A stretch of DNA of 64,000 nt from a virus. The position numbers and the translations under genes are program-made. This document shows positions 3,001 through 55,584 of the stretch, one piece after another. Under the pieces are notes generated by a model. The model ran no database searches. It was not told the DNA's origin and was given only the letters and a program-made list of their open reading frames with translations. The stretch is taken from positions 1 to 64,000 of IMG/VR virus record IMGVR_UViG_3300035698_014711; one strand, 5' to 3'. How positions within the stretch are numbered: position 1 is the stretch's first letter; every line of letters begins with the position of its first letter.

Positions 3001-3764
3001 TCAATCAGAGTTAAAGTAATTCTATATCTGTCTGCACCTGGAGCTGATAGATTAGGAGTTTCACCAGAATTATCATAAAGAGACACATCATCAGTAGCAG
3101 TAACAATATCTTCTGTTACCTGAAAGCCTACTACACCAGAAGGAGTTGTGGTGTATTTACTGAAGACAATAGACTGAGCCTTTGCAAATACAAAGTGTCC
3201 TTGAATATAGAACTCTCCTGAACCAACACTGACTTTAGTGCCCTTACCAAAAGCAGGATTGCTTACTGTATTTGTAGTCTGAACAGTTAGAATTGTACCA
3301 GTTGTATCACCAACAATATTCTCAGCAGCTGTAAATGTCACAGCTGAAGTACCTGCAGAAGCTGCATTAGAATCAGTATATTGGACATAGATTGTAGCCG
3401 GATCAGAACCAGCAGGCACAATTTCAAGGATTCTAGCTTTCACACCAGAAGTTGATCCTTCAAACGTTTCACCAACAATTGATGTCAGATCAGAAGGAAG
3501 AGTATTAGCGCTTGTATTCAGTTTAACAAATCTATGAGAAATGTCAATACCAACATTAGCAGCTGGATTAACTGAAGCTCCATCTTTGAAGATATTATCT
3601 CCAAATCTTTTCATTTCCTGATTAATAATAGTCTGCATCTGTGTAAGTTCGCGAGATTGCACATACCTACCATTATTGAAGAGTATCTGATAGAAATTAT
3701 CACTATCAGTATAATCGTCATTGTAATTTTGTTCGAAGAAGGCTTTTGTTAATTTTTGAGTCAT
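1..3764 (-). CDS. DUF4815-like large virion protein (C-terminus off window)
   Basis: The frame is open to the left edge, so about 1,254 codons are visible and the C-terminus is missing. The N-terminus (FNNGRYVQSRELTQMQTI, then an IFKDGASV segment, about residues 28-65) resembles the start of DUF4815 proteins, giant virion proteins of cyanophages and other T4-superfamily phages. The rest is beta-rich and repetitive, with a proline run (PPPPPPAPP) near residue 1175 that looks like a linker. It follows gp8 with a 9-nt gap at the end of the baseplate operon, where T4 encodes gp9-gp12. A role at the baseplate rim or in tail-fibre attachment is inferred from position. The ATG at 3764 is the natural start. 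Confidence 0.8.
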   Translation of the reverse strand, partial: MTQKLTKAFFEQNYNDDYTDSDNFYQILFNNGRYVQSRELTQMQTIINQEMKRFGDNIFKDGASVNPAANVGIDISHRFVKLNTSANTLPSDLTSIVGETFEGSTSGVKARILEIVPAGSDPATIYVQYTDSNAASAGTSAVTFTAAENIVGDTTGTILTVQTTNTVSNPAFGKGTKVSVGSGEFYIQGHFVFAKAQSIVFSKYTTTPSGVVGFQVTEDIVTATDDVSLYDNSGETPNLSAPGADRYRITLTLIDEADIASDENFVYIAKITNGEIVNINKSDSTYNVLLDVLATRTKEESGNYVVKPFISKFEDHDSDLTKLNLNIAPGVGYVEGYRIDPGASTLEVLKPITTSLVENEVIAANYGNYVKVSLLKGLPDLSSFEKWNLYNADTAGGSIIGTARVRGIEADGATYRIYLFDISMNTGLNFRTVRSIGASNVEYGTLILENSVAVLKETNNNDAFFTLPLSRPSSISDVSLNVERSFTGTTNGAGELNLSLSSSGETFGSTTEWIVAVDSSGDVVSPAITGAGTASAVLTAMPFNSAVKVIALVNKGGASGSFRTKTLTETTVTVAIDSDGDGQAYLDLAKADIYDVSRITLVDSDGEDTCGCYFLDNGQRDNFYGIGKMMLTSGGNVPTGNVFVRFRYFQHGTNGNFFAVNSYTGQVEYKDIPSYRMQNGEKVELRDVFDFRSRVSDDAAGFSAGSARVNELPQNTDLVTADITYYNRRKDKLILNQSGSIVYLKGTPSLDPKYPVTPARSMDLYNIQLGPNTLNTKDLSMSYIDNRRYTMRDIAKLDKKIDKVEELAVLSLLDLSAASIEVLDSSGFSRTKAGFLTDDFKSHQASDVNNLEYRASIDPTVGLLRPSFREKNVRMFYDSDLSTNIVLKGDKVFLKYTEELFLDQPKASRLQNINPFSVIDHRGNIELSPSTDEWRDVITSPVAITGGPEFVLGVSDIERSIAASPDLTDAEGFTGGGTLAELIATLRPRDAQIVSSIFDTVDLNWDGVNWGWFGTEPDDQGNITQTLGIQERGAPNGRTANSIFIPFIRSRRISFRAEGLLPNSQHWAFFDGRRIDDWVREETFTRLAAVNTNPQIGASNLTQHPEGPTALISNANGIIEGSFFIPNTDALRFSTGVRRFSLYDITVENRNNSASRGVTYYFANGTQEVRVTPPPPPPAPPTLQTDDGFDWPPPDGVRGVDWDPIAQSFYVDNSTGVYITKIRAFFQSKDAIIPVECQIRPMVNGYPSSSEVLK

Positions 3765-16703: not shown

Positions 16704-16711
16704 CTAAATCC

Positions 16712-16719
16712 TATAAATA
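16712..16719 (+). promoter_or_regulatory. Late promoter box for gp4 operon
   Basis: TATAAATA on the plus strand, 31 nt before the GTG at 16751; predicted start near 16725. Confidence 0.75.
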
Positions 16720-16733
16720 AATTTAAGTATAAT

Positions 16734-16741
16734 TATTTATA
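16734..16741 (-). promoter_or_regulatory. Late promoter box for gp48 operon
   Basis: TATAAATA on the minus strand, 30 nt before the ATG at 16703; predicted start near 16728, so the two divergent polymerases face each other. Confidence 0.75.
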
Positions 16742-16750
16742 GGTTCTACC

Positions 16751-32288: not shown

Positions 32289-32309
32289 AATTCACTCCTT
32301 GGTTGATTA

Positions 32310-32338
32310 TTTATACCATAACCAAGGAGTGATGTAAA
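32310..32338 (-). promoter_or_regulatory. Early-type promoter with 13-bp inverted repeat to the ribosome site
   Basis: TTTACA, 17 bp, TATAAA (part of a TATAAATA). The spacer TCACTCCTTGGTT is the exact reverse complement of AACCAAGGAGTGA, which contains the ribosome site of the downstream gene. Confidence 0.8.
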
Positions 32339-32341
32339 CCC

Positions 32342-32620: not shown

Positions 32621-32642
32621 AATTCACTCCTTGGTTAAGTTA

Positions 32643-32671
32643 AGTATAACCTATCCAAGGAGCAGTGTAAA
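32643..32671 (-). promoter_or_regulatory. Early-type promoter for 92-aa gene
   Basis: TTTACA, 17 bp, TATACT; spacer CTCCTTGG complements CCAAGGAG of the ribosome site. Confidence 0.8.
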
Positions 32672-32679
32672 CACCTAAG

Positions 32680-42772: not shown

Positions 42773-42854
42773 TGGCACAGATCTGAGGAATCGAACCCCT
42801 TGTCAGATGGTTTGGAAGCATCCGTCTACCCAGTAGACATTAGACTAGACCTAT
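42773..42854 (-). tRNA. tRNA-Trp(CCA) with 7-nt insertion
   Basis: Acceptor ATAGGTC/GATCTGT, discriminator G, CCA encoded; D-stem GTCT/AGAC; anticodon loop TTCCAAA. Nine bases (TAGTCTAAT) instead of two lie between acceptor and D-stem, apparently from duplication of TAGTCTA. Confidence 0.65.
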
Positions 42855-42859
42855 ATTGT

Positions 42860-42947
42860 CTATAATATTTGTAGTTTTGTAGATGGTATAGAACATGGTT
42901 TGTACTCATAGTTTTATTGTCACTACTATTTATACAAACCATGCTCT
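42860..42947 (-). repeat. 15-bp inverted-repeat element A after CCA-less tRNA-Ala
   Basis: Minus strand: AGAGCATGGTTTGTA (42947-42933) pairs with TACAAACCATGTTCT (42904-42890). The 28-nt loop contains an inner ATAGT/ACTAT stem; CTACAAAACTAC follows. It starts 5 nt after the last base of tRNA-Ala. Element B at 44760 shares everything except the 15-bp stem sequence. Confidence 0.8.
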
Positions 42948-42952
42948 CTAAG

Positions 42953-43024
42953 TGGACCGCCGGGGAATCGAACCCCGTGACAGCAATCTTGCAAGGATCG
43001 CCCGCTACCCCATAGACGCAGCCC
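42953..43024 (-). tRNA. tRNA-Ala(TGC), CCA not encoded
   Basis: Acceptor GGGCTGC/GCGGTCC, discriminator A; the genome continues CTTAG, not CCA. Anticodon loop CTTGCAA. Element A follows directly. Confidence 0.82.
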
Positions 43025-43032
43025 ATATTCTT

Positions 43033-43109
43033 TGGTACCCAAGGAGGGACTCGAACCCTCAAGACCTTCCGTTTGGGGAAGTATGCTATTCCTCTTACGT
43101 TGCCTGGGC
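43033..43109 (-). tRNA. tRNA-like gene with 6-nt anticodon loop
   Basis: Acceptor GCCCAGG/CTTGGGT, discriminator A, CCA encoded, T-arm GAGGG/CCCTC. The anticodon stem CTTCC/GGAAG encloses only CCAAAC, so no anticodon can be assigned. It is a paralogue of tRNA-Leu(TAG) at 44460, sharing D-arm and T-arm sequence. Confidence 0.5.
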
Positions 43110-43254
43110 ATATTATTGCTACCTACTCCATAGCTTTCCGATACTCTCTCCTTACGAGTATGACCTCGGAACACGGTGCTCGCGCAGACCTAAGAAGTTA
43201 CCTTCTTCTCATATTTAAAGACCCTCAGGCTGAAACAGGGTCGTAGAAAACTTC
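43110..43254 (-). other. Spacer with three hairpins
   Basis: No gene is visible. It holds ATACTC/GAGTAT around TCTCCTTAC (about 43153-43172), the palindrome AAGAAG-TTAC-CTTCTT (about 43192-43207), and GACCCT/AGGGTC (about 43220-43242), the last directly downstream of the tRNA at 43255 and possibly a processing or termination signal. Confidence 0.4.
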
Positions 43255-43329
43255 TGGTGTTGTGCCGGGGAATCGAACCACCGTTGGACCGACCTATACG
43301 GCCGCGCATTAACATTATGCTAGCACAAC
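43255..43329 (-). tRNA. tRNA, anticodon unclear (TAT?)
   Basis: Acceptor GTTGTGC/GCACAAC, discriminator A, CCA encoded, D-stem GCAT/ATGC. The best anticodon stem CGGCC/GGTCG leaves only GTATA; opening one pair gives loop CGTATAG, reading TAT, with G instead of U at position 33. Isotype not assigned. Confidence 0.55.
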
Positions 43330-43333
43330 ATAT

Positions 43334-43423
43334 TGGCGGATGGAGAGGGAGTCGAACCCTCACGGCGCTTAAAGCCCTAACTGCTTTCAAAACAGCGGCC
43401 ACCCCCAATTGGCTTGCCCATCC
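43334..43423 (-). tRNA. tRNA-Ser(TGA)
   Basis: Acceptor GGATGGG/TCCATCC, discriminator G (Ser identity), CCA encoded, long variable arm, anticodon loop TTTGAAA. Confidence 0.88.
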
Positions 43424-43434
43424 GTATCTTATAA

Positions 43435-43836
43435 TCAATCGAAGTATGTTGGATCATCATGAGGATTACGCTTTTTTGGAGCTCTAGTTGTCTTCTTCTT
43501 TTTCCTCAGTTCATCTGATATTTCATAGTCTATACCAATACCATCATATTCGTCTTCTTCAGCAAAGTTATATGAAATTGCAATGACACCTCTAATACTA
43601 GGAGTCTCAAAAGATTCGTAATCGCCGTTTTTCTTATATGTCCACTTGGAATCACTTTTAAGAGTGGCAATTAATTTCTTAAGCTTCTTACGGTCGGCTT
43701 CATATACATCCGTGAAATTCTTGTCTGCTTTTTCAGTTGTCCCGCCAGTTATTTTCACGGCCATTTTAATAACAGTAGCTAAATCTTCTGTATTAGCTTC
43801 ATTAAGAGAATGCATCAATTCTTTAAAGGTTTTCAT
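43435..43836 (-). CDS. Hypothetical protein (133 aa)
   Basis: The ATG at 43836 has AGGATAT upstream and the late box at 43863-43870. Sequence MKTFKELMHSLNEANTEDLA, then a lysine-rich middle and a basic end (KKKKTTRAPKKRNP). Phage proteins starting MKTFKEL..LNEA are common structural or unknown late products; function not known. Confidence 0.6.
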   Translation of the reverse strand: MKTFKELMHSLNEANTEDLATVIKMAVKITGGTTEKADKNFTDVYEADRKKLKKLIATLKSDSKWTYKKNGDYESFETPSIRGVIAISYNFAEEDEYDGIGIDYEISDELRKKKKTTRAPKKRNPHDDPTYFD

Positions 43837-43862
43837 ACGATATCCTATTCTATGATTTAAAG

Positions 43863-43870
43863 TATTTATA
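43863..43870 (-). promoter_or_regulatory. Late promoter box for the 133-aa gene
   Basis: TATAAATA on the minus strand, 27 nt upstream of the ATG at 43836. Confidence 0.7.
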
Positions 43871-43890
43871 CATTCATACATTCAAAGAAT

Positions 43891-43971
43891 TGGTACTAGG
43901 TGGTAGGTGGTAGAATTGAACTACGCATCAACATCCTTCACAGGGATGAGACCTCACCAGAGGAACCTAGC
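43891..43971 (-). tRNA. tRNA-His(GTG) with 7-nt duplication near 3' end
   Basis: Acceptor GCTAGGT/ACCTAGT, D-stem CCTC/GAGG, anticodon loop CTGTGAA in CATCC/GGATG, CCA encoded. Between the T-stem and the 3' acceptor strand lies an extra ACCTACC, a near copy of ACCTAGT. Confidence 0.65.
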
Positions 43972-44001
43972 ATGATAAACTTGTGGGTCTTATACATTCG
44001 G

Positions 44002-44127
44002 TTAACCCTTCAGCTGATTGAGTTTCAACACCAGCGAGTAAAGCGCGTTGCGAACATCACGCGGCATGGTAGAAATTGGACCGATACAATGTCCTAAGCG
44101 TCTTTCGATAATCTGTCGGGCAGTCAT
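44002..44127 (-). CDS. Small hypothetical protein (41 aa)
   Basis: MTARQIIERRLGHCIGPIST, then RDVRNALYSLVLKLNQL. Its ATG overlaps the upstream stop as ATGA, which supports coupled translation. No family known. Confidence 0.5.
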   Translation of the reverse strand: MTARQIIERRLGHCIGPISTMPRDVRNALYSLVLKLNQLKG

Positions 44128-44381
44128 TCGCAGGCCCCCATAAGCATTTCATCTGATGGGCCATTAATGTAATTTTGTGTTTCCAGTAAATCACCGGCAG
44201 TACCAAAGTAAAGCATTAATGAATTGTCATGGTATTCATCAAATGCTGGGCCACCTACGAGGTTAGGGCCACTTTCAGCATTACCATTGTCATGATAATC
44301 TTCATTATAGGCAGTGTGCGTGAAGCCTGCTTCAATCAAGAAAGCGTGGGACGTGCTAAACGGTGTTCTATTATCAGACAT
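44124..44381 (-). CDS. Small hypothetical protein (85 aa)
   Basis: Acidic protein with HTAYNEDYHDNGNAESGPNL and AFDEYHDNSLMLYFGTAGDL. Promoter at 44413-44441. Not recognised. Confidence 0.55.
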   Translation of the reverse strand: MSDNRTPFSTSHAFLIEAGFTHTAYNEDYHDNGNAESGPNLVGGPAFDEYHDNSLMLYFGTAGDLLETQNYINGPSDEMLMGACE

Positions 44382-44412
44382 TTGGTTAATCCTTTGGTTT
44401 GGTTATAAGTTA

Positions 44413-44441
44413 ACCATAACATAACCAGAGACATATGTAAA
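44413..44441 (-). promoter_or_regulatory. Early-type promoter for 85-aa gene
   Basis: TTTACA, 17 bp, TATGGT on the minus strand. Confidence 0.65.
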
Positions 44442-44459
44442 CAACTAAATGATATATTT

Positions 44460-44537
44460 TGGTACCCAAGGAGGGACTCGAACCCTCAGACCTCACCTTC
44501 TAAGGGTGATATGCTATTCCACTTACATCGCAGGGGC
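44460..44537 (-). tRNA. tRNA-Leu(TAG), short variable loop
   Basis: Anticodon loop CTTAGAA in TCACC/GGTGA reads TAG (CUA codons). The acceptor GCCCCTG/CTTGGGT has two mismatches, and the variable loop is short, unlike normal tRNA-Leu. It is a paralogue of the tRNA at 43033. Confidence 0.6.
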
Positions 44538-44547
44538 ATGATAAACT

Positions 44548-44623
44548 TGGTACCTGAGGAGGGAATTGAACTCTCTCATAAACACTAATCAGGTGCTCGT
44601 CTTTCCATTAGACAGTCTCAGGC
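44548..44623 (-). tRNA. tRNA-Ile(GAT)
   Basis: Acceptor GCCTGAG/CTCAGGT, discriminator A, CCA encoded; D-stem GTCT/AGAC; anticodon loop CTGATTA. Confidence 0.88.
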
Positions 44624-44627
44624 ATAT

Positions 44628-44702
44628 TGGTAGCGGGGTCAGGAATTTAACCTGAAGGAAGACGTGGTAATGAGCCAGTCTTGAGAAACATCTCTCCCCG
44701 CA
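44628..44702 (-). tRNA. tRNA-Met(CAT), copy 2
   Basis: Acceptor GCGGGG/CCCCGC, D-stem GAGA/TCTC, anticodon loop CTCATTA. The T-loop is TTAAATT instead of TTCRANT. Initiator, elongator or Ile2 identity cannot be decided. Confidence 0.7.
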
Positions 44703-44759
44703 CAAACTTTATAAGGTTCTTCCAGGGTGCCAGCCCTATGTAAATCATACCATTGATTA

Positions 44760-44842
44760 TATTAGTAGTTTTGTAAATTGTGTAGTGCAAGAGAAGTACC
44801 TATAGTTTTACCATATAGTACTATCTATACTTCTCTTGCACT
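44760..44842 (-). repeat. 15-bp inverted-repeat element B after CCA-less tRNA-Glu
   Basis: Minus strand: AGTGCAAGAGAAGTA (44842-44828) pairs perfectly with TACTTCTCTTGCACT (44798-44784). The 29-nt loop holds the same inner ATAGT/ACTAT stem as element A, and TTTACAAAACTAC follows. It begins 5 nt after the last base of tRNA-Glu. Confidence 0.82.
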
Positions 44843-44847
44843 CTATT

Positions 44848-44918
44848 AAAGCATACGGGATTCGAACCCGTGTTCACCGGGTGAAAACCGGCGCGTCCTT
44901 TCCAATAGACGAATGCTT
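44848..44918 (-). tRNA. tRNA-Glu(TTC), CCA not encoded
   Basis: Acceptor AAGCAT/ATGCTT; anticodon loop TTTTCAC in GCCGG/CCGGT; T-arm ACGGG/CCCGT. After the discriminator the genome reads AATAG and then element B. Confidence 0.82.
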
Positions 44919-44934
44919 CATAATGATGAAATTT

Positions 44935-45630: not shown

Positions 45631-45722
45631 TGCTCTCCACCTTGGAATCGAACCAAGCATCGGATCTCTCACGTCAACTGATTAACAGTCAGCTCGCCCA
45701 CCTTGAGCGCTGTAGAGAGCAA
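45631..45722 (-). tRNA. tRNA-Asn(GTT) with long variable region
   Basis: Acceptor TTGCTCTC/GAGAGCAA, anticodon loop CTGTTAA in CTGA/TCAG, T-arm CTTGG/CCAAG. CCA is not encoded. About 19 nt lie between the anticodon and T arms, far longer than normal for Asn. Confidence 0.7.
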
Positions 45723-46087: not shown

Positions 46088-46132
46088 AATAGTTCCTGTT
46101 GGGAGGAATAATTCCCTGCCCTTTTATATACT

Positions 46133-46140
46133 TATTTATA
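46133..46140 (-). promoter_or_regulatory. Late promoter box downstream of NAMPT
   Basis: TATAAATA on the minus strand, followed by a second TATATAAAA. It would drive the 28-aa ORF and could read to the terminator at 45945. Confidence 0.6.
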
Positions 46141-46184
46141 CAACTAGAGCAGGGAATGTGTCTTTTTCTTATCTTTTTTGCAAC

Positions 46185-47564
46185 TTAAATTGCTGCATTT
46201 TTCCGAACTGTTGAGAAGGAAGTATCACGTAGAAGCTTTCCATCAAGAAAGACATCCTCAAGAAGATTTACTTCCCCAGCCTTGAGATCACTTTCACGGA
46301 ATGTTTCCTTACCATTGTAGGCGAGACGGCCTCTCTTGGAAGTTTTACCTCCGTGGATAGGATCTTTCCAAGTATCAATCCAAGCTTCGCCTTTATGAAT
46401 TGCAGAAGCTTTCATTGCATAGCCAAGAGTGTCTCGGCTTACATTCTGGAGAAGTCCTCCACCCATTCCGAAGGCAATATTCTCAGTTGAGATTCCTTGA
46501 ATTTCAAGATTATCAAGGATTTTTGGAAGTGATGTAGAATCAATGCCGTCACCTTGAATGACTCGAATATAAGGAGGAAGTACTTTATAGCCTTTTGAAT
46601 TGGTAGTATATCCGAACTCTTCCATTAGAATTTTAATGACTTCAATCGGAACAACGGTTGGAGAGCCTGAGTCTGGACGGATAACAAGAGTGCCGCCTGA
46701 GTTGATAATCATATCTTTAAACTCTCGGCCTACAATGTTCCTTGCCATATTGTAGATATCATAGGAATCAGACACCATGGCCAGGAGTTTTCCCTCACCA
46801 GAGAAAAGTGTCATCATATTTTTAAGAGCTTCTGCTTCGCCTTCACGGCCCCATGAAGTCACGGTGGAGTGTTCTGAGGCGGGAATAGAGAATCCTGCCA
46901 TATCTTCACCATAGTAGTGACGAGCTCCAAGAAGACCGGCAACTGTGTCGGTTCCCATAAAGTTCACAAGGTGAGCGGTTCCACCAAGCATTGCTTGTTC
47001 AAGACAAGTAGCACCACGAGCACCAAAGTCATGCAATTTGAAAGCAATCTGATCAGCAACTGGCACATCAGACGTAATTTCAAGTGCATTGGCGATGTGT
47101 AGCTTCATGTTTCTCGATACTGTTGCAACTGTTGACGGATACCACACAGCTCGAAGCAAGGCAGTTTCAATAAAGCTTGGCAACCAAGAGCAATTTTCAT
47201 CAGTATTGATAATCTGGACTTGCACATTTGAAGATTCCATAACAGTTCCTTCTGGAACAGCCTGGATTCTCAGGGGTAAATAGCCACTGTGTTCTAGCAA
47301 AATGTATTCCCAATCTTCCCGATAGAAAGGGAGACCGTGAGCTAGGATAATCATTTCCGCTTCATTGATATCAGCTTGGGTGAAAGGTTCTAGAAGATAT
47401 TCTTTAATGAACATCTGCAATCCAAAGAACACAGTCACCTTATCAGCCTTGCGAGCTTCAATATATGAGTTTACAAACTTGATGTCTGGAGCCCATTGCC
47501 GGGGTTGGCTATACTTATAGCTATCAGAATTGAGAATTAGATTGGCGATTAGATTATTTCTCAT
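46185..47564 (-). CDS. nadV: Nicotinamide phosphoribosyltransferase (NAMPT)
   Basis: A 459-aa enzyme that joins nicotinamide and PRPP to make NMN. Family motifs are clear: NSDSYKYSQPRQWAP at the start, KLHDFGARGATCLEQA near residue 173 (substrate Asp), GFSIPASEHSTVTSWGREGE near 225 with the catalytic His, LVIRPDSGSPTVV near 290 (phosphate and Asp contacts) and RVIQGDGID. Length is normal. It lies 29 nt after the NMNAT-Nudix gene, so both steps from nicotinamide to NAD are made together. Confidence 0.93.
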   Translation of the reverse strand: MRNNLIANLILNSDSYKYSQPRQWAPDIKFVNSYIEARKADKVTVFFGLQMFIKEYLLEPFTQADINEAEMIILAHGLPFYREDWEYILLEHSGYLPLRIQAVPEGTVMESSNVQVQIINTDENCSWLPSFIETALLRAVWYPSTVATVSRNMKLHIANALEITSDVPVADQIAFKLHDFGARGATCLEQAMLGGTAHLVNFMGTDTVAGLLGARHYYGEDMAGFSIPASEHSTVTSWGREGEAEALKNMMTLFSGEGKLLAMVSDSYDIYNMARNIVGREFKDMIINSGGTLVIRPDSGSPTVVPIEVIKILMEEFGYTTNSKGYKVLPPYIRVIQGDGIDSTSLPKILDNLEIQGISTENIAFGMGGGLLQNVSRDTLGYAMKASAIHKGEAWIDTWKDPIHGGKTSKRGRLAYNGKETFRESDLKAGEVNLLEDVFLDGKLLRDTSFSTVRKNAAI

Positions 47565-47593
47565 GTTACAAAACTTCCTTTTGTATCTTTAAC

Positions 47594-48619
47594 TTAACTG
47601 ATGCTTGTGAACCAGTCGATGATATGAAAATGGTCTTCAGATAGTTGGGTTGGATCGATATTACTTAGAGACATCCAAAATGCCTTCTTTGCATCATCAC
47701 CACCTTTTACCTTGGGCAACTTCTTTTGGAAGCCAAGGTCAATGTGATATGCTGTAGTGATGGTCCGTCCTCGAGTTGATCTTTGAGGATAATCGAAAGT
47801 CTTAATAGATTTGATACTTCCGTCCAGAACCTTTTTGGGAACTTTCAGACATGTCTCTTCTTCAAGCTCACGGAGTGCTGCATTTCTGAGAGTCTCATAC
47901 TCATTGATGAAACCTCCTGGAAGAGCAAGAAGGCCTTTACCTGGGTTATTCGCCCGTTCAACCATCAAGACACAGCCGGAGCAAGTCACAACTGAATCTG
48001 CAGTCTGAAAGATTGGAGGGTATTTACCTGTAGAAGTTGTCTGCTTATAGATCCGAGTTTCTTCATATTCATCTCGAAGAAGAGACCAGAAAGGCTGCTG
48101 AGTCTGAGTCTTGAAAATCTGAAAAGCAGCATCAGGCATCAGACTCGTGACTTCATCAGATCGATCACTTAGATAATGAGTATAAGCAAAGTTTCGGATG
48201 TCGGTAGCATTGACATCACCAAACGAATCTACTTCAATCTTGTCCCAGAAGGGAAACATATCCAGATAGAAAGTGGTCTCGTCTTTGCCGTGCCCAAGAA
48301 TTGCAATCTTAAGAGGCAGATTTTGCCAGTTGATCTCAATAGATTCATGGACTGCAGTCTGAACTCGGGCTACCCATTTGTGATCATCATAAGGACAATC
48401 TTGGACAGCAGCGGTCTGTACTGAATACTCAGGAAAAACTGCTTTGAGCTGAGCTCTTCGTTCATTATATGTGAGGGGATTGCGTAAGTCTCTAGCTTGG
48501 TTAGTGGATCCATAGACCCAAATAACATGTTTGCCTTTTTCTTTGGCACATTTAACTAGATGCTCATGTGCCTTTGAGAACGGCGAGGCACGGCCGATAA
48601 TTACTATTACGTCATACAT
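47594..48619 (-). CDS. nadM: Bifunctional NMN adenylyltransferase / Nudix hydrolase
   Basis: A 341-aa two-domain protein. Residues 1-170 are a nucleotidyltransferase: VIIGRASPFSKAHEHLV (the GRxxPxHxGH region), GSTNQARDLRNPLTYNER and VNATDIRNFAY. Residues about 200-341 are a Nudix domain with the box GGFINEYETLRNAALRELEE plus ET. NadM-Nudt fusions make NAD from NMN and ATP, and the Nudix part cleaves ADP-ribose-type molecules in relatives. With NAMPT it completes a two-step NAD salvage route. Confidence 0.9.
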   Translation of the reverse strand: MYDVIVIIGRASPFSKAHEHLVKCAKEKGKHVIWVYGSTNQARDLRNPLTYNERRAQLKAVFPEYSVQTAAVQDCPYDDHKWVARVQTAVHESIEINWQNLPLKIAILGHGKDETTFYLDMFPFWDKIEVDSFGDVNATDIRNFAYTHYLSDRSDEVTSLMPDAAFQIFKTQTQQPFWSLLRDEYEETRIYKQTTSTGKYPPIFQTADSVVTCSGCVLMVERANNPGKGLLALPGGFINEYETLRNAALRELEEETCLKVPKKVLDGSIKSIKTFDYPQRSTRGRTITTAYHIDLGFQKKLPKVKGGDDAKKAFWMSLSNIDPTQLSEDHFHIIDWFTSIS

Positions 48620-51258: not shown

Positions 51259-51282
51259 TTGGTTCACTCCTTGGTTAAGTAT

Positions 51283-51311
51283 ACTTTAACACAACCAAGG
51301 AGCAATGTAAA
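51283..51311 (-). promoter_or_regulatory. Early-type promoter for 84-aa gene
   Basis: TTTACA, 17 bp, TAAAGT; spacer CTCCTTGGTT complements AACCAAGGAG at the ribosome site. Confidence 0.75.
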
Positions 51312-51376
51312 CCATTATTTTAATTATTTTTAGATAGAAGGGCTTGTGGCACCTACAAAAGAAGTCCTTTCAGACT

Positions 51377-55123: not shown

Positions 55124-55584
55124 TTAATAATCTAATTGATATTTTATAGTTATAACATAATGACTATGACTTGTAAACTATTATTTTTAAATTCTTTCTA
55201 CTTTACCTTCCAACCAACAACTATCATTGTTTTCTTAGAAGCACACACTTTGCCATCCGAAGAGACAAGTGTGTGCTTGAGTTTTGTTTACTCGTCGGCA
55301 TTCACACTCTGATATGAGCAACTCTTGCGAGGAAGGGCGGTCAGCCGAATACCTTTTAAGCTCAGTTTGCATACTGACGGCAATTTTCCCAAGCCTATCA
55401 GACGACAACAGGGAAAATTTGATGGTTGATGTGTTCATTGCCATCATCGTGACTATAATATTTAGACAGCATTTAGACTTGGCTGTATCATGGTGTAATT
55501 TGTGCCCTAACTGAGCCCAAGGACTATGTCCTTTCTTCAGGTTTGGCTACTCACTTGAGGCTATGCCTCTATGTTAGCAGAATA
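55124..55584 (-). other. Gene-poor stretch with one weak ORF and hairpins
   Basis: A 67-codon minus-strand frame (MNTSTIKFSLLSSDRLGKIA..., ATG at 55438) has no ribosome site. Its end overlaps a perfect 10-bp inverted repeat GCACACACTT/AAGTGTGTGC (55243-55278). Two mini-hairpins with ATA loops, GAGGC-ATA-GCCTC (near 55559) and AAGGAC-ATA-GTCCTT (near 55520), lie between it and the glycan gene. Promoter 55149-55177 sits at the left edge. Confidence 0.4.
55149..55177 (-). promoter_or_regulatory. Early-type promoter for 59-aa gene
   Basis: TTTACA, 17 bp, TATAAC; sequence nearly identical to the promoter at 54907. Confidence 0.72.

Follow-up and report, generated by a model that had tools for sequence, protein, structure and literature searches.

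Two hairpins behind CCA-less tRNA genes of a T4-like phage as probable remnants of SegB-type homing endonuclease genes

Site-specific DNA cleavage is known for SegB of phages T4 and T6 (PMC2988022, PMC13096335). The T6 enzyme cuts in tRNA genes with a preferred motif, RAWTSGAAC, that is the complement of the T-loop (PMC13096335), so that tRNA genes of any isotype can be targets, and SegB homologues are over-represented in phage genomes at distances of up to 1000 bp from tRNAs (PMC13096335). A late promoter and a hairpin of segB have been described in a review (PMC2988022). For segB, I-TevI and mobE of phage Aeh1, a block of translation by the hairpin on early or middle transcripts has been reported or predicted, and a late promoter inside the hairpin gives rise to transcripts without the 5' arm (PMC2988022, PMC3014915). 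I-TevI, I-TevII, I-TevIII and Aeh1 mobE follow the same hairpin logic, with a late (or middle) promoter inside (PMC2988022, PMC3014915), but these genes lie in introns or nrd genes with no tie to tRNA ends, and mobE is of the HNH type. T4 segB is situated right after a tRNA gene without CCA (tRNA-Ile), inside the T4 tRNA cluster; its hairpin starts with AGAACAT, contains a late-promoter-like sequence and carries the ATG in its 3' arm, and the protein begins with MFYxxYKITN.

The window analysed here, a stretch of 64,000 nucleotides, belongs to a 73,296-base IMG/VR virus record of T4-like type, its T4-like signs being baseplate genes nearest to those of T4-like myophages, T4-type promoters and a large tRNA array on the minus strand. 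Two elements of this array, A and B, lie directly 3' of a tRNA gene, the same placement as that of T4 segB, and by sequence and predicted folding both contain a late promoter within a start-codon-sequestering hairpin, that of B being one base off. The T4 late-promoter box as given in PMC3014915 was the reference for calling TATAAATA. We consider it very likely (probability about 0.93) that A and B derive by truncation from two SegB-type GIY-YIG homing endonuclease genes, of which they retain the 5' ends, and that these genes had inserted into the CCA of tRNA-Ala and tRNA-Glu of this T4-like phage. The features concerned are the following.

42953–43024, minus strand: tRNA-Ala gene, anticodon TGC, discriminator A at 42953 followed by CTTAG, without encoded CCA; host site of element A (sequence, T-arm/acceptor scan)
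42890–42947, minus strand: hairpin of element A, outer stem of 16 pairs (15 bp and, at its end, T-G), inner stem of 5 bp, start codon in the 3' arm
42927–42934, minus strand: TATAAATA, the T4-type late promoter of A, at the top of its 5' arm (consensus from PMC3014915)
42840–42896, minus strand: probable truncated GIY-YIG homing endonuclease start in A, MFYTIYKTTNIIDNIGLV and stop, running into the next tRNA; intact homologues begin with MFYTIYKITN
42776–42854, minus strand: CCA-bearing tRNA gene that follows A, anticodon TCC as read by eye, beginning inside the truncated reading frame
44847–44919, minus strand: tRNA-Glu gene (TTC), discriminator A at 44847 followed by ATAG, without encoded CCA; host site of element B
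44784–44842, minus strand: hairpin of element B, outer stem of 16 pairs (15 bp and, at its end, T-G) with an inner stem; the 3' arm holds a TTG start codon
44822–44829, minus strand: late-promoter-like TATAGATA in B, one base from TATAAATA
44647–44790, minus strand: probable truncated GIY-YIG homing endonuclease start in B, (TTG)HYTIYKTTNIINGMIYIG and then unrelated sequence; similarity to an intact protein over 44710–44787

An earlier note on this DNA had reported two hairpins with shared loop and tail. Both are present, with stems of 15–16 bp by sequence and RNA folding, and do directly follow tRNA-Ala and tRNA-Glu genes that encode no CCA; the coordinates hold, but all features of A and B sit on the minus strand. 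Read in this direction, element A consists of tRNA-Ala, CTTAG, AGAGCATGGTTTGTA-TAAATAGTAGTGACAATAAAACTATGAG-TACAAACCATGTTCT and then ATACCATCTACAAAACTACAAATATT, and element B of tRNA-Glu, ATAG, AGTGCAAGAGAAGTA-TAGATAGTACTATATGGTAAAACTATAGG-TACTTCTCTTGCACT and then ACACAATTTACAAAACTACTAATATAATC. The spacing of 5 nt after the discriminator, stated for both, applies to A (CTTAG), while B has 4 nt (ATAG). In each element the late promoter reaches from the top of the 5' arm into the loop. RNA folding gave −26.9 kcal/mol (z = −6.5) for A and −29.7 kcal/mol (z = −6.3) for B, with none of 200 shuffles being equally stable in either case, whereas an RNA of A starting at the late promoter folds at −6.2 kcal/mol compared with −26.9 kcal/mol at full length. 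The stems had been called unrelated, but both align with the family consensus AGAACATGAAATGTA, and their differences are compensated across the family: among 16 sequences, 98.5% of the pair cells were paired and 34 were changed on both sides, which none of 500 shuffles reached. Pairing therefore seems to be selected, the sequence being free except over the protein start. Rfam held no family matching A or B.

The tail, which had been taken for a separate motif, turned out to be protein-coding sequence. TTACAAAACTAC encodes (M/L)(F/H)YTIYKTTNI, as at the N terminus of a GIY-YIG homing endonuclease, and the translations MFYTIYKTTNIID of A and (TTG)HYTIYKTTNIINGMIYIG of B (longer translation (TTG)HYTIYKTTNIINGMIYIGLAPW...) are in the same register as the intact homologues, which argues that A and B are truncated genes. 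Over 26 amino acids, B shows 62% identity to an intact protein (E 8.7e-4, protein search of the phage's own record). From the GIY-YIG N-terminal region (Y-x-x-Y-K-x-T-N ... Y-I-G), YTIYKTTN is found in both elements, YIG in B and only IG in A; A stops within a few bases of the next tRNA, and B retains the YIG codons before unrelated sequence. As the reading frames comprise only 18 and 47 codons, with a complete frame including catalytic and C-terminal DNA-binding parts being absent, A and B would be remnants and not working members of the family. The homology of the stubs is short, 14–19 codons, and in a protein search of the whole record (73,296 bases) B was the only match and no intact copy was found. 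T4 segB, in contrast, is intact and active, and its stem and loop sequences differ from those of A and B.

Four tRNAs of the array lack CCA (discriminators at 42953, 44847, 43901 and 45633; T-arm/acceptor scan), one more than the three counted in the earlier note, compared with about 30 that have it. At 43901 (minus) the discriminator A is followed by CCTAG, and at 45633 (minus) G is followed by CAATG; neither has a hairpin, and the latter could be a full excision scar. Between the array and a nicotinamide phosphoribosyltransferase gene, a 12-bp hairpin with TATAAATA in its loop occupies 46111–46157 (minus); no tRNA stands immediately before it, and an endonuclease start was not noted. Next to the array, at 46185–48619 (minus), the nicotinamide phosphoribosyltransferase gene forms an NAD salvage pair with a gene predicted to encode an NMN adenylyltransferase-Nudix protein. 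Elsewhere in the window, repeated stem-loops at 32292–32340, 32624–32673 and 51264–51313 (minus) resemble T4-type promoter-early stem-loops in having a GTTTACA-type -35 and a TATA -10 in the loop; a palindrome at 16710–16743 with TATAAATA on both strands, between divergent genes, is apparently a double late promoter; and 55373–55481 (minus) matches Rfam RF01712 (Methylobacterium-1 RNA) with 47.2 bits against a gathering score of 40, here in a phage record.

Viral contigs were scanned for relatives with the loop pattern TATARATAGTAN{5,10}TAAAACTAT, which yielded 32 external copies with a hairpin of the A/B type; the combined loop and tail pattern gave no matches, and the exact tail pattern gave 75 in viral contigs, mostly by chance. 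In 31 of the 32 an endonuclease open reading frame of about 200–266 aa follows the hairpin, and in these 31 the start codon lies in the 3' arm or just past its end. The intact proteins begin with MFYTIYKITN...YIGKHQT...DGYMGSGK, match Pfam SegE_GIY-YIG and NUMOD3, the GIY-YIG match being weak, and can be aligned with T4 SegB. All 32 hairpins are located directly 3' of a tRNA, representing at least 10 isotypes, none with CCA; CATAG, CATAAGCG, CACAG or CATTG follow the discriminator instead. A generic scan for tRNA plus TATAAATA revealed a modest excess of hairpins, with stems of at least 11 bp in 10 of 82 sites compared with 1.35 in shuffles, and provided the first true homologue, L155. In L061 (about 353–485), one of the matches of the exact tail pattern, the acceptor 3' strand of a tRNA-His forms a 20-bp hairpin with downstream sequence, its loop containing TATAAATA.

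An independent search by protein alignment only, which avoids selecting on hairpin or tRNA, uncovered 74 distinct loci; in 69 of them a tRNA T-arm precedes the start by no more than 110 nt. On a quick tree of 70 proteins, 59 labelled copies require at least 42 isotype changes, which means that these genes moved between tRNA types many times. The complete mobile unit is a free-standing GIY-YIG homing endonuclease gene of about 0.68 kb together with its regulatory hairpin. In Rhizobium phage RHph_TM2_3B (L341, about 3001–3585), an unannotated SegB-type endonuclease gene stands just before a tRNA-Ala.

At the loci of the protein-only search with resolvable tRNA ends, CCA is missing in 50 of 53 adjacent tRNAs, covering 18 isotypes, compared with 42 of 518 other tRNAs of the same loci (Fisher p 2e-42, computed on related, non-independent sequences). 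Three adjacent tRNAs keep their CCA despite an endonuclease copy, and additional copies or stubs were present at some of the remaining tRNAs without CCA. The account of SegB homologues in PMC13096335 speaks of neither CCA nor a late promoter or stem-loop; the insertion after C74 and the CCA loss come from the present analysis. The searchable literature, whose reach did not include the original SegB paper, contained no statement of an insertion exactly after C74 that removes the encoded CCA. This absence is no proof that the rule is new; the association of SegB with tRNAs, its hairpin and its T-loop preference were already known.

The insertion point became visible when filled and empty tRNA 3' ends of family homologues were compared. 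For tRNA-Asp, the empty alleles of lake phages (L345–L351) read GTCG followed by CCAAA or by CCAACACAATTTAATGC, and the filled ones (L209, L211, L216, L224, L235, L241) GTCG followed by CATAAGCG...gene...CAACAATTTAATGC; homology ends at the first base after the discriminator, as in L235 and L348 (1,681 bp at 91%). For tRNA-Met of Klebsiella phages, the empty alleles read CGCCT followed by CCAAATAATTGG (CCAACAATTGGAC in KpV477, CCAAATAATTGGAC in Roth77), and the filled allele of phage KP182 CGCCT followed by CTTTTG...gene...AAATAATTGG (AAATAAATAATTGGAC). In both pairs the insertion lies just after C74, splitting the encoded CCA, and the endonuclease gene takes its stop codon or part of the C terminus from the downstream flank. 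A tRNA-Ile of 74 nt is identical in IME341, with CCA, and in T4 next to segB, without CCA; because the bases after the discriminator differ (TATTTTG), the T4 case shows CCA loss only. Presence/absence polymorphism was therefore found for the family at three tRNAs, none of them the site of A or B, and a second lake tRNA (Met) yielded no empty site. In phage IME341 (L353, about 800–870), a different endonuclease gene with its own start-codon hairpin is found about 40 nt after the tRNA-Ile, the CCA being kept. An intact gene at the same tRNA-Ala or tRNA-Glu was not found in any close relative, and nicotinamide phosphoribosyltransferase as a search route led to distant phages only; gene loss in this lineage is accordingly inferred from the homologues that other phages carry.

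Hairpins without an intact gene number at least six (A, B, L222, a second site in L229, L280 and L289). Five of them keep an essentially intact stem, and in L229, L280 and L289 the late promoter looks broken, with pairing persisting in two of the three. Such stubs would be expected if the hairpin were kept for its own sake, whether to release or protect the 3' end of a tRNA without CCA or to provide the tRNAs downstream with a late promoter. We regard this as unlikely: the stem changes of A and most of those of B also occur in the intact, translated copies L252, L253, L294 and L295, so that there is no sign of compensation after gene loss and recent truncation suffices for the intact stems. 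The stub of L229 is moreover already bulged, and L222 lies near a contig end. A non-autonomous miniature element of hairpin and flanks, copied between tRNA ends by endonucleases encoded elsewhere, would share the insertion point of full-length copies, as the stubs do, and for recombination repair a stub would be as easy to copy as a gene; no right end or body is common to any two stubs, so that each appears to have been truncated independently, and this explanation is very improbable. A hairpin-only mobile element with fixed ends and no linked gene was rejected, 31 of the 32 homologues continuing into the endonuclease gene.

The earlier note had offered a small mobile element at tRNA 3' ends or a dedicated 3'-processing structure for CCA-less phage tRNAs. 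Mobility and target of the former stand, but the unit is the whole endonuclease gene with its hairpin, A and B being its likely remnants. The latter, as a structure unrelated to mobile genes, fits the strict position after CCA-less tRNAs but hardly the 3' arm and tail that code for a homing endonuclease in 31 of 32 homologues, nor the CCA-less tRNAs of the same arrays that have no hairpin, and we give it very little credence. As an origin it does not agree with the use of the hairpin in intact copies as a late-promoter/start-codon switch, though a secondary processing role is still conceivable. T4-type phages also possess PeSL cassettes, in which a promoter and a stem-loop occupy an intergenic region, and early-promoter stem-loops occur in this window. 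These cassettes have early promoters and terminators and are noncoding, without a tie to tRNAs, unlike A and B, whose hairpins embed a start codon followed by conserved codons; the sequence after the stem is ATACCATCTAC in A and ACACAATTTAC in B, with no T-run, so that ordinary terminators or PeSL-like cassettes are the least probable explanation, close to negligible. A new ribozyme, a terminator, a MITE and a PeSL were all considered and dropped.

Truncated endonuclease genes thus remain our preferred reading, against which stand the non-consensus late promoter of B and the two array tRNAs with neither CCA nor hairpin. In read-through transcripts from upstream tRNAs, the hairpin would hide the start region, as known for T4 relatives; transcripts from the late promoter would, as in these relatives, be devoid of the 5' arm, and the endonuclease would therefore be made late. 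The enzyme would cut insert-free tRNA genes via the conserved T-loop, which, in view of the preference reported for SegB, may be the target of the A/B family too. The gene would then be copied into the cut tRNA gene by recombination, and CCA loss would protect the site from cutting. Insertion at the CCA end would explain why the tRNA genes at A and B have no encoded CCA. Both copies in this phage would later have lost everything after the first 14–19 codons, leaving behind the hairpin, the promoter and a CCA-less tRNA gene that would now depend on a CCA-adding enzyme. More speculatively, homing endonucleases might be a main source of CCA-less tRNA genes in T4-like phages by splitting CCA after C74, with the stub then kept as a cut-proof allele or functional 3' unit; we put this forward as a tentative suggestion.

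Read as truncated endonuclease genes, the hairpin pair becomes a readable history of a selfish gene family jumping among tRNA genes. Its target, the CCA end, is unique within a tRNA gene in that the cell can restore it template-free with the CCA-adding enzyme, so that insertion would be nearly harmless to the tRNA. This offers a simple, testable account of the scattered CCA-less tRNA genes in T4-like phages, the tRNA-Ile of T4 included, and gives annotators a rule for finding unannotated endonuclease copies and stubs.
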